Source of the DNA: Aerococcus sp. UBA6277
GTDB taxonomy: Bacteria; Bacillota; Bacilli; Lactobacillales; Aerococcaceae
DNA: 46,936 nt
Direction of reading: 5' to 3'
Assembly: GCF_002440555.1 (NCBI RefSeq)
Contig: NZ_DJUR01000021.1
Span: forward strand, 1-46,936
Within the stretch, counting starts at the first letter, position 1, and each line of letters opens with the position of its first letter. Below, one piece after another: positions 34,232-39,036 of this stretch. Position numbers and translations under genes: made by a program. The notes beneath the pieces are model-generated. The model had not been told where the DNA came from, ran no database searches, and worked only from the letters and a program-made list of their open reading frames with translations.

Positions 34232-35530
34232 TTACTTATCTAGCGCCTTATGACGAATATTTAATTGATGTTTTTCATAGTTCGCTTGTTTCAATTGTGG
34301 CAAGCTCATCATGGCGATAAAGCTGACTAGGTAAAGGCTGGCTAAGAAAAGCATGACCATACCCACACCAGAAGCATCTAAGATGAAACCAATAATTACT
34401 GAGGAGAACCCACCGACTGCGCGTCCAACGTTTAAAATCGTGTTGTTGGCAATCGCATTGATTTTAAATGGATAAAGACGTGAAATCATTGCCCCGTAGC
34501 CTGCGAACATACCGTTTACGAAGAAACCAACGACGGCACCACCGATTAAGATGGTCATAGCTGAGTTGGCAAAAGTGAACAAGTAAACTGAAACTGCTGA
34601 CGCGATTAAGTAGACACCATAAGACAATCTTGGCCCTAATCTATCTAAGATTTGTCCAAATGTTAGCATCCCTAAACACATACCTAAGATTGTTGTCACC
34701 ATCCAAGTAGATGAACCTGAAACAGTTACCCCAACTTGTTCTTGCATAATAGTTGGTAACCAGTTCATCATTCCAAAATAACCAGCAATTTGTACAGTTG
34801 TCATCACCATTAAGATGATTGTTTGATAGGCTTGCCCTGGTGTCTTGAACAGGTCTCTAATAGCTGGCTTCTCCCTGTCATCAATCTCTACAAGGTCTTC
34901 TGTCACTTCGTCTGTATTAATCCCTAATTCATCTTCATTAATAGTTAATTTAGCCCACACAACCACTAGGATTGGTAAGATCCCGAATAGAAACAACCCT
35001 CTCCAACCAAGTGTTGGTACAATAAAACCTGCTAGAAGCGCCGAACTGATAGAACCGATTTGACCGACAATCCCGTTCAAGGATGAAATCCGGCCTAATT
35101 GTTTAGCAGGAACAAGTCCGGCCATAATCGAGATGGCTACCCCGTACTCACCACCAACCCCGATTCCTGCGATAAAGCGTAGTAGGTATAGGTATTGAAT
35201 ATTTGGCGTGAAGAAGATTAAAGCTGTTGCGATAGAGAAAGTAAGAATTGTTAAGTAGAAAACCTTCATCTTGTCCCAACGGTCAGCTAAGACCCCGAAT
35301 AGCAAACCTCCAGCTAGCATCCCTAAGTTGGTAATTGTCGCGATCCAACCAGCAGCTACACTTGAAATCCCTAATTGGCTGATGATAGATGACATTGAAA
35401 ATGATAAGAACATCACGTTCAAATCATCTGTCCCTGATGCAACAATAGCAGCAATCAAGGCGTTTCGTTGCGATTTGTTTAACTTGTGATCTTCCACTTG
35501 TAATGCATTTTTTTCGATTGTTTTTTCCAT
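34232..35530 (-). CDS. major facilitator superfamily transporter
   Basis: A 432-residue, 12-helix permease. The loop 2-3 motif GGLLFGVLADRWDKMKVF and the IAGIGVGGEYGVAISIMAGL stretch in helix 4-5 put it with the sugar-phosphate/organic-anion type MFS (related to AAHS and sialate-type symporters), not with drug pumps. A central loop at about 215-235 is acidic. The frame opens at 35572, but the ATG at 35530 follows AAAGGAG at seven bases. It lies 130 bases downstream of pyrE on the same strand with no clear terminator between, so a pyrimidine-related organic acid such as orotate is a possible but unproven substrate. Confidence 0.8.
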   Translation of the reverse strand: MEKTIEKNALQVEDHKLNKSQRNALIAAIVASGTDDLNVMFLSFSMSSIISQLGISSVAAGWIATITNLGMLAGGLLFGVLADRWDKMKVFYLTILTFSIATALIFFTPNIQYLYLLRFIAGIGVGGEYGVAISIMAGLVPAKQLGRISSLNGIVGQIGSISSALLAGFIVPTLGWRGLFLFGILPILVVVWAKLTINEDELGINTDEVTEDLVEIDDREKPAIRDLFKTPGQAYQTIILMVMTTVQIAGYFGMMNWLPTIMQEQVGVTVSGSSTWMVTTILGMCLGMLTFGQILDRLGPRLSYGVYLIASAVSVYLFTFANSAMTILIGGAVVGFFVNGMFAGYGAMISRLYPFKINAIANNTILNVGRAVGGFSSVIIGFILDASGVGMVMLFLASLYLVSFIAMMSLPQLKQANYEKHQLNIRHKALDK

Positions 35531-35659
35531 TTTTGTGCTCCTTTTTTGGTAAAACTGGTGTAATTCCCTCATTTAGTCACCGTGAAAATAAAAATGGGCA
35601 AAAAAAAATAAGGACATAAATTTTGTAACGCTGTTATTTGTATAGCAGGTTAAATCAAC

Positions 35660-36301
35660 TTAACCGTGTTTTTCAGACCAAGCTTTAGGGTCTTTGTACC
35701 ATTCCATCAACTTGTCATAATGTGGTGATAATTTAGGATCTTTTACTGCGTAATCCAAAATCTTCACGTAGTTTGTCAAGGTCATTAAAGGATAGCCAGC
35801 TTGTTTGAAAGCATCTTTTGAAGCTGCTAATAAATAGTCAAAAATAGCTACTGCTGCTACTACTTGGCCGCCCGCTTCTTGAATCTTGTCAGCTGCAGTA
35901 ATCACGCTACCACCAGTTGAAATCAAGTCTTCAATGATCACTACTTTTGCGCCTGCTTCTAAAGCACCTTCAATAGCATTTTGCTTACCGTGATCTTTGG
36001 CAGAAGAACGCACATAAATCATTGGTAAGTCTAAACGTTCACTTACAAATGCAGCATGTGGAATACCAGCAGTTGCAGTACCTGCAATCACATCTACGTC
36101 AGGGAAGTTTTCTTTGATTAATTCAGCCAAAGCATCTTCCACTGTTGAACGCACACTCGGGTATGACATGATTAATCGGTTATCTGTATAAATCGGCGCT
36201 TTAAGTCCGCTGGCCCAAGTATATGGTGCCTCAGGGCTAAAGTTTACAGCTTTAATCTCTAGTAATTTTTGTGCTACCAAATCGGCTTTTTCTACTGTCA
36301 T
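35660..36301 (-). CDS. pyrE: orotate phosphoribosyltransferase
   Basis: Forms orotidine 5'-phosphate from orotate and PRPP. It has 213 residues. The PRPP-binding loop is VVIIEDLISTGGSV (120-133), and the catalytic lysine region is RSSAKDHGKQN (98-108). It follows pyrF by 12 bases, completing UMP synthesis. Its ribosome binding site GGAGGG lies within that gap. Confidence 0.94.
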   Translation of the reverse strand: MTVEKADLVAQKLLEIKAVNFSPEAPYTWASGLKAPIYTDNRLIMSYPSVRSTVEDALAELIKENFPDVDVIAGTATAGIPHAAFVSERLDLPMIYVRSSAKDHGKQNAIEGALEAGAKVVIIEDLISTGGSVITAADKIQEAGGQVVAAVAIFDYLLAASKDAFKQAGYPLMTLTNYVKILDYAVKDPKLSPHYDKLMEWYKDPKAWSEKHG

Positions 36302-36313
36302 CTTGCACCCTCC

Positions 36314-37021
36314 TTATTGTCCAGACCAATCAGCTGTGATTTGATCGTAAGTTACTTTTGAGTTATTGGCTTGTGTAATTGGTCGTCCAACAACGATATA
36401 ATCAGAACCGCCTTGGGCTGCTTGGCTTGGTGTCATGATTCGTTTTTGGTCATCCGCAACAGAAGTCGCTAGGCGGATACCCGGTGTAATTGTTTGGAAG
36501 TCTTCTCCGCAAGCTTCTTTAATAGCTGCTGCTTCAAGTGGTGAACAAACCACACCATCAAGGCCCGCTGCTTTAGTTAATCTAGCGTAGCGCAATACTG
36601 AATCCAATACTTCACCTGGAATTCCTTGTTCTTCGTTCATTTGTTCAGTAGAAGTGGACGTTAATTGCGTGACACTAATTAACATCGGGCGTTTACCTGT
36701 CGAACCTGCCTCTAAACCACGAAGCGCTGCTTGCATCATCTCTTTCCCACCAGCCGCATGTACATTGACCATTGCAACACCAGTACTGGCTAAAATGGCC
36801 ATTGCGCGCTCAACCGTATTGGGAATATCGTATAATTTCAAGTCTAAGAAAATGTCGTGGCCTTTTGCTTGTAACTCTTTTAAGAAAGCTGTCCCACCAG
36901 CATAAAACAATTCCATACCTACTTTTACATTTAGTTGTTGACCTTGGAACTGATCAAGGAACGCAAATACCTCTTCTTGATTAGGAAAATCTAAGGCAAT
37001 AATTGGTTTCTTCGGATCCAC
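36314..37021 (-). CDS. pyrF: orotidine 5'-phosphate decarboxylase
   Basis: Decarboxylates OMP to UMP. It has 235 residues with the TIM-barrel signature FLDLKLYDIPNTV (58-70), including the catalytic DxKxxD, and GDFQTITPGIR-like C-terminal phosphate loop (TITPGIR, VVGRPIT). Translation starts at GTG (37021) after AGAGGAAG. No other pyr genes accompany pyrFE here, unlike the large pyr operon of Bacillus. The pair is expressed from its own promoter through an attenuated leader of about 230 bases. Confidence 0.94.
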   Translation of the reverse strand: MDPKKPIIALDFPNQEEVFAFLDQFQGQQLNVKVGMELFYAGGTAFLKELQAKGHDIFLDLKLYDIPNTVERAMAILASTGVAMVNVHAAGGKEMMQAALRGLEAGSTGKRPMLISVTQLTSTSTEQMNEEQGIPGEVLDSVLRYARLTKAAGLDGVVCSPLEAAAIKEACGEDFQTITPGIRLATSVADDQKRIMTPSQAAQGGSDYIVVGRPITQANNSKVTYDQITADWSGQ

Positions 37022-37086
37022 ATGGCACTTCCTCTCATATTTTTCTATTATCTTTTCATTTTTTTCTCATTTATCTAAAAATGGGC

Positions 37087-37123
37087 AAAAAAAATAACCA
37101 ACAACGAAACAAGGTTGCTGATT
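37087..37123 (-). terminator. terminator in the pyrFE leader (attenuator)
   Basis: AATCAGCAAC/GTTGTTGGTT, a 10-bp stem with wobbles and loop, is followed by ATTTTTTTT on the minus strand, 66 bases before the pyrF start. A promoter upstream and the gene downstream make it a leader attenuator. Confidence 0.75.
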
Positions 37124-37250
37124 ATATACTAGCGGATGCTGGTCTTAAAATTTGTTCACTAACAAAATAAAGTGGTTATTCTTGTGAGCGAACAGCTCTT
37201 ATGTGCAGGGCATCCATACGCTAGTGCAGTTTCCCCTGTTTTTACTCTGT
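37124..37250 (-). promoter_or_regulatory. structured pyrFE leader RNA, candidate new sensor
   Basis: After the predicted start, ACTAGCG and GGATGC (with a TAT bulge between) pair with GCATCC-CGCTAGT, giving a 13-bp long-range helix (arms near 37206-37225 and 37128-37142). It encloses hairpins GAGCtgttcGCTC and TTTGTTagtgAACAAA. Between these, AAGAATAACC can pair over ten bases with GGTTATTTTT of the terminator's 3' side, an antiterminator. I find no PyrR-binding-loop consensus. Ligand, if any, is unknown. Confidence 0.5.
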
Positions 37251-37255
37251 TGGCT

Positions 37256-37284
37256 ATTGTACCGACTTAGAAAGAAAGAGTCAA
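37256..37284 (-). promoter_or_regulatory. pyrFE promoter
   Basis: TTGACT (37279-37284), a 17-base spacer and TACAAT (37256-37261) form a strong promoter downstream of the pyrG terminator. The predicted start is near 37249. Confidence 0.7.
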
Positions 37285-37346
37285 CATATATTTTAATAAA
37301 TATTTACATTATCAACGAAATCTTGATAAGACAAGGATATACAATT

Positions 37347-37392
37347 AAAAAATATCCGTTCTCTTATACAAAACGTACAAAAAGAACGGATA
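37347..37392 (-). terminator. terminator of pyrG
   Basis: A perfect stem TATCCGTTCT/AGAACGGATA with a 20-base loop is followed by six T's, 19 bases after the pyrG stop. Confidence 0.75.
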
Positions 37393-37410
37393 ATTTACAA
37401 TTTATAATTC

Positions 37411-39036
<1,626 letters not shown>

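Follow-up and report, generated by a model that had tools for sequence, protein, structure and literature searches.

How is pyrFE transcription set in an Aerococcus whose pyrFE leader stands where many relatives carry a PyrR-type loop? The window, meaning the whole analysed stretch of 46,936 nucleotides, carries pyrFE on the reverse strand behind a structured leader of about 165 nt, which lies between a promoter and an intrinsic terminator. The preliminary description of this DNA had read the leader as a candidate novel attenuator or riboswitch of pyrFE without the PyrR-loop consensus. Searches with Rfam and with a PyrR-loop model (R2) supported an attenuator outside both the PyrR elements and the Rfam families. 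From its anatomy and conservation, the leader is likely a transcription attenuator ahead of pyrFE.

The coordinates of the genes and leader elements are collected in the table. The PyrF protein was 97% identical to an Aerococcus urinaeequi protein (P0005), the match on which the genus name rests, and 83% and 82% identical to P0009 and P0010, respectively; judged by sequence, the genome is of the Aerococcus viridans/urinaeequi type. In the gap between pyrG and the promoter, a long-loop hairpin followed by a T run was seen by eye at about 37390-37347, without a counterpart in the terminator scan. Because this hairpin lies between pyrG and the pyrFE promoter, it suggests that pyrFE is a transcription unit apart from pyrG. 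Downstream of pyrE on the same strand is an MFS transporter gene (34232-35572), whose best match was the aromatic acid/H+ symport family (220.7 bits, under the curated cut-off of 418.55). A pathway intermediate could be its cargo.

The promoter claimed earlier (TTGACT-17-TACAAT) was found at 37284-37256 and is kept in the leader of a second genus genome, L007. Promoter-like sites numbered four against 2.1 expected from shuffles, so the call rests on the L007 comparison, where the −35 and −10 boxes were 6/6 and 5/6 identical and the spacer 8/17. From the −10 spacing, transcription likely starts at about 37248-37251. The distance from this inferred start, about 37250, to the pyrF GTG at 37021 is about 230 nt, in agreement with the leader length given previously. 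The terminator that had been placed ahead of pyrF was predicted by the scan (one found, 0.2 expected from shuffles) and is conserved in L007. Its hairpin spans 37125-37094 with the T run next, so that a predicted intrinsic terminator lies between promoter and gene. The element after it, GCCCATTTTTAGA, was able to pair with the 5' A/G strand in the fold of the window leader. A stretch resembling GCCCATTTTTAGA after another T run was also seen in the same genome (L002, about 1501-1538, E 4e-4), possibly by chance.

Table. Genes and leader features of the pyrFE locus in the window, in order of transcription from pyrG.
Feature	Position	Strand	Basis or remark
pyrG	37411-39012	-	upstream of the leader, strand shared with pyrFE
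Promoter TTGACT-17-TACAAT	37256..37284	-	scan and L007 conservation
Conserved initial region AGCCAACAGAGT and first A's	37242..37255	-	AGCCAACAGAGT 12/12 identical in L007
5' switch strand AAACAGGG	37234..37241	-	pairs with 37114-37107, or via CAGGG with 37210-37206
Helix P1 5' arm ACUAGC	37220..37225	-	six pairs in 5/5 sequences
Helix P2 5' arm GGAUGC	37210..37215	-	GAUG/CAUC core kept in L007
CCCUG, 3' side of early 5' hairpin, proposed anti-antiterminator	37206..37210	-	probability 0.999 at 48 nt
P3/P4 5' side UAAGAGCUGUUCGCU	37187..37201	-	UAAGAGCUGUUCGC 13/14 identical in L007
AAGAATAACC, earlier-proposed antiterminator strand, apical loop	37174..37183	-	not supported
P4/P3 3' side	37146..37160	-	13/19 identical in L007 over an overlapping, not identical, stretch
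Helix P2 3' arm GCAUCC	37134..37139	-	pairs with GGAUGC
Helix P1 3' arm GCUAGU	37128..37133	-	pairs with ACUAGC
Intrinsic terminator, 12-pair hairpin and T run	37087..37125	-	scan; 35/38 columns identical in L007
CCUUGUUU, predicted antiterminator 3' strand into terminator loop	37107..37114	-	pairs with 37241-37234
Post-terminator element GCCCATTTTTAGA	37074..37086	-	13/13 identical in L007; next 24 columns 7/24
pyrF, GTG start	36314..37021	-	NCBIfam NF001273, 307.7 bits (cut-off 193)
pyrE	35660..36301	-	NCBIfam TIGR00336, 153.3 bits (cut-off 106.8)

Rfam at gathering thresholds over the window gave no match to the leader, the PyrR element RF00515 included, and RF00515 was absent among the 20 Rfam matches returned at E up to 10 for 36950-37450. 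The lax Rfam hits in the leader were all far under their gathering scores and were read as chance. The RF00515 test is a weak one, because, although most of 19 sources examined have a PyrR-type loop, RF00515 at gathering matched only L059. For the family-specific model R2, the loop sought was a UCCNGNGAGG-type hairpin with a CUUU/AAAG lower stem; 27 loci were picked by eye for a visible loop, the pattern found 21, and 19 were used (L081 and L085, near-copies of L079, were left out, and near-copies such as L060, L067-L069, L077, L093 and L094 were not given to the script). In these 19 family sequences 94.2% of cells were paired, a value reached in 0/500 shuffles, and 5/10 pairs had changed on both sides (23/500 shuffles), although selecting the loops by their motif in part favours pairing.

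With filters off, the highest R2 scores on 37000-37300 were 2.8 bits for the transcribed strand and 6.8 bits for the opposite one; up to E 10, R2 gave no match in L001 and L004-L007. The absence of the PyrR loop consensus noted previously thus holds with a family-specific model as well. Elsewhere in the same genome, R2 scored the PyrR-type loops ahead of pyrR, pyrB and carA at 38.7 (a member of the training set), 17.8 (E 0.23) and 20.0 bits (E 0.067), respectively, so a loop as weak as those of pyrB and carA would have stood out in the pyrFE leader. The loop pattern matched the genome six times, three of them ahead of these genes, and three times in the reversed control. The genome encodes PyrR, followed by pyrB, pyrC and a match above cut-off to NF005574, which we take to be dihydroorotate dehydrogenase, pyrD.

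A pyrF match was present in 14 of 15 genomes of the genus sample. Five of the 14 had the leader ahead of pyrF (the window, L004, L005, L006 and L007), seven had a PyrR-type loop there (L010-L016), and two, L008 and L009, had neither. L010, L011, L012, L014 and L015 belonged to the R2 training set; L013 and L016, outside it, scored 24.6 and 32.2 bits. A whole-genome R2 search at E up to 0.01 recovered six of the seven genus pyrF loops, that of L013 being absent. In L008 (reverse strand) and L009 (genomes G003 and G004), the roughly 190 bases ahead of pyrF held a short leader with a palindrome, TGCTTGGCGCCAAGCA, and a terminator identified by eye, which is perhaps a third leader type. In the family, the pyrF upstream region was inspected in 36 of the 67 genomes with a PyrF match (the 14 of the genus and 22 others, among which L074 and L080 lie near a contig end, the printed stretch not being their leader). 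PyrR-like loops were seen in the pyrF leaders of L075, L076, L079, L082, L083, L086, L087, L089, L092, L095 and other Aerococcaceae, some one base shorter (CGAGA instead of CNGNGA). Among the relatives inspected, a PyrR loop is thus what commonly precedes pyrFE, and the present clade is an exception.

A covariance search for the leader in relatives, as had been suggested, gave strong matches within the family solely to the five known leaders. Among 76 family genomes, the leader model R1 matched eight at E up to 1, of which three were weak (E 0.2-0.96); because strict filters were used and at most 45 candidates per genome scored, more distant relatives may have escaped detection. Across 395 genomes of the order, R1 at E up to 0.1 again matched eight, comprising four known leaders and four weak matches, with up to eight candidates per genome scored under strict filters and G005 not among the matches listed. 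The best weak match there, G225 (9.2e-4), occurred on both strands at the same place. A pattern scan of viral contigs gave 28 stretches, one with a weak R1 match (15.4 bits, E 0.23) that was taken as chance. A PyrF search of the contig collection returned 42 loci, none titled Aerococcus.

The comparison with L007 shows which parts of the leader are kept. The pyrF genes of the two genomes were identical at 537/705 DNA positions and at 39/95 fourfold-degenerate sites, and in the leader identity stood at 68-100% over the 5' strand, the terminator and most of the helix arms. The 5' A/G strand matched at 14/17 positions, the P1 5' arm at 7/7 and the P2/P1 3' side at 10/13; less alike were CCCTGCACA (6/9), the link (2/4), and the junction with the P2 5' arm (3/8). 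In the apical loop, which holds AAGAATAACC, 11/28 positions were identical. This pattern indicates selection on much of the leader, with none visible on the apical loop. The sequence before the promoter in L007 is unlike that of the window, and L005 diverges from about 370 bases upstream of pyrF; in both, promoter and leader are kept.

The 181-nt window leader folded at −49.8 kcal/mol (z = −4.1), with 0/200 shuffles equally stable, and without its terminator it gave z = −3.2 (3/200). The L007 fold was less distinct (z = −1.7, 11/200), and a shorter L007 piece lacking the 3' arms showed no stability signal (z = −0.06). The long-range helix described previously exists, and its arms (ACTAGCG, GGATGC and complements) pair in the predicted folds. 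Its length was corrected to 12 pairs (6 + 6, with a 4-base bulge) instead of 13, because the 3' side, GCATCCGCTAGT, has 12 bases. The two hairpins that it was said to enclose were replaced in the minimum-energy fold by one long irregular hairpin.

The helix is conserved in the other four leader-bearing genomes, and no covariation was seen among the five sequences, of which one is divergent. P1 was identical in all five leaders, with one pair opposite an alignment gap in L007 in the MAFFT alignment. For P2, 4/6 pairs break in L007 in the MAFFT register, within the stretch that is 3/8 identical; after a one-base slip the GAUG/CAUC core is retained and the outer pair is lost. P3/P4 in L007 showed one G-U to G-C change and the loss of two pairs. 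For the antiterminator form as a whole, 0/36 pairs had changed on both sides (five sequences, in effect two). In this form 95.5% of cells pair, against 30.6-43.8% in slid versions and with 94/500 shuffles as high; since the structure was derived from the same five sequences, this share does not count as covariation support.

The leader also holds a 13-codon frame, MDALHIRAVRSQE, at 37217-37176 on the reverse strand. Its ATG is AAG in L004-L006, and no Shine-Dalgarno sequence was seen by eye. L007 has a frame of 16 codons, read by eye, that shares ALxIRAVR with MDALHIRAVRSQE; since the start codon is missing in L004-L006, this likeness was attributed to the conserved RNA, and a leader peptide was rejected.

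Two competing forms were obtained, as the preliminary description had proposed, of near-equal predicted energy and with switching pairs other than those it drew. In growing-transcript folds of the window, the 5' hairpin CAGGG/CCCUG had a probability of 0.999 at 48 nt and 0.997 at 115 nt. At 127 nt it fell to 0.001 and P1 stood at 0.999. The pairing of AAACAGGG with CCUUGUUU then reached 0.999 at 147 nt and 0.998 at 155 nt, and in the full-length transcript the terminator was predicted at 0.765 versus 0.234 for the antiterminator. L006 behaved in the same way. L007 had a weak 5' hairpin (0.0 at 48 nt and 0.605 at 115 nt) and strongly favoured the antiterminator in the full-length transcript (0.967 versus 0.025). 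The energies of the terminator and antiterminator forms were −46.6 and −46.0 kcal/mol for the window, −45.9 and −45.3 kcal/mol for L006, and −35.3 and −37.8 kcal/mol for L007, respectively. The competing antiterminator is a thermodynamic prediction throughout.

Shuffle controls of this antiterminator gave unequal results. When the first 27 nt were shuffled, the terminator arm and loop were held equally strongly in 12/400 cases for the window and in 1/400 for L007. Both forms lay between 0.1 and 0.9 at full length in 57/400 and 59/400 shuffles, and near balance by itself is therefore no unusual outcome. The simpler controls were weak: of 2000 shuffles, 207, 200 and 254 reached the antiterminator duplex energy for the window, L006 and L007, respectively, the prefix energy gain was matched by 148, 153 and 24 of 500, and a shuffled terminator loop was as good in 121, 117 and 209 of 2000. 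In L007 the counterpart of CCUUGUUU is CCUGUUUU, still with eight pairs. A compensatory change from AAACAGGG/CCUUGUUU to AAAACGGG/CCUGUUUU was considered and dropped: in the MAFFT register 2/8 antiterminator pairs break in L007, and a one-base slip restores them. Cross-genome strands of the window and L007 gave −10.1 and −7.9 versus −9.8 and −9.4 for the native duplexes. As these are about equally strong, the strand changes are compatible and not truly compensatory. Of the antiterminators computed, the 5'-end pairing came out best; its support comes from two divergent sequences and from a single one of the several controls.

The explanation that we favour, with moderate confidence from these models, is that the leader is a pyrFE transcription attenuator with a 5'-end antiterminator, whatever its sensor. 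It would set pyrFE expression from the place where many relatives have a PyrR loop. In the early transcript, CAGGG would pair with CCCUG to give the 5' hairpin. As the 3' arms emerge, the long P1-P4 hairpin would form and free the 5' strand, so that AAACAGGG could pair with CCUUGUUU, and CUG with CAG, prolonging P1. The terminator 5' arm and loop would then be tied up by the antiterminator, and pyrFE would be read. A signal of sufficient pyrimidine may hold the early hairpin, or its pseudoknot with P1/P2; with the 5' strand so occupied, the terminator would form and pyrFE would be off. The order of events in the cell, the sign of control and the sensor are inferred here. Since pyrFE are the genes concerned, we favour a signal from the pyrimidine pathway, and the conservation of a folded domain makes an RNA aptamer possible.

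The alternative that survives best, which overlaps with the favoured explanation, is that the same switch is set by a leader-binding protein, either one other than PyrR or PyrR itself at an unconventional site. The genome encodes PyrR and the attenuator logic would be the same; moreover, since many relatives have PyrR-type loops in their pyrF leaders, pyrFE was probably under PyrR control ancestrally. The family model, however, finds the PyrR loop neither in the window leader nor in L004-L007, and we consider this alternative possible, though doubtful. Direct RNA sensing of a pyrimidine-pathway metabolite is, we think, about as likely as sensing by a protein. The fuller proposal, that a new riboswitch class of the Aerococcus viridans group directly sensing UMP, UTP or orotate took over pyrFE from PyrR, which kept pyrR-pyrB-pyrC-pyrD and carA, is offered tentatively.

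In CTP-sensitive pyrG attenuation, the 5' end of the transcript is the antiterminator. A 5'-end antiterminator is predicted here as well; unlike in that system, neither a GGGC start nor a slippage run was seen in the Aerococcus leader, whose 5' end and terminator are separated by a large hairpin with conserved arms. Nucleotide supply might likewise act through RNA polymerase, by start choice or pausing, with no dedicated sensor and with the 5' end as antiterminator. The pairing of the transcript 5' end with the terminator and the complete conservation of the initial region AGCCAACAGAGT are consistent with this, but a homopolymer start was not seen either, and the intervening hairpin of about 100 nt is not obviously needed by such a system, so we regard it as unlikely. 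Equally improbable in our view is a constitutive leader, in which a stable 5' structure and a partial terminator serve no regulation. The lack of covariation, the few genomes, the moderate shuffle controls and the failure to find a sensor would suit it. Against it, the 5' strand and the pairing ability of the terminator loop are conserved, the energies are near-equal in the window and L006 (L007 is not balanced), and the position is a regulatory site in relatives.

The antiterminator drawn earlier, in which AAGAATAACC in the loop pairs with GGTTATTTTT of the terminator 3' arm, is very improbable as the main one: ten such pairs are possible in the window sequence, and L004-L006 also have the strand (duplex −10.8 kcal/mol), but its probability was 0.000 at 155 and 166 nt in the window and L006, and the strand is absent from that place in L007. 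Another stretch of the L007 leader pairs with the terminator 3' arm at −12.2 kcal/mol; the pairing could have moved, and some 3'-arm pairing may exist there.

Terminator-type riboswitches combine a conserved structured domain with an expression platform of mutually exclusive helices. The Aerococcus leader has the same layout, whereas it lacks an Rfam match and has a very narrow distribution. Parts of PMC7430163 describe the anti-antiterminator motif and three-way logic of PyrR attenuation (RF00515). As far as that account goes, the pathway and the sequence of early hairpin, antiterminator and terminator ahead of pyr genes are shared; here the PyrR loop was not found, and the extreme 5' end is predicted to close the antiterminator around a long hairpin. 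In S. pneumoniae, the same two genes, pyrFE, are under an RNA attenuator (the SP_0701/0702 pyrR RNA), which is a PyrR element according to parts of PMC10942264, while the Aerococcus leader scores as none. Among the papers listed by literature searches on Aerococcus PyrR, riboswitches and attenuation and on pyrFE riboswitches, none described the leader in its title or abstract opening.

We call the leader an orphan transcription attenuator. To our knowledge, no UMP- or orotate-sensing riboswitch is known, and direct sensing of a pyrimidine by the leader RNA, if it occurs, would represent a new ligand class. In this single genus, pyrFE follows a PyrR loop in some genomes, the Aerococcus leader in others and neither in the rest, so that close relatives can be used to trace how one RNA switch came to be replaced by another.
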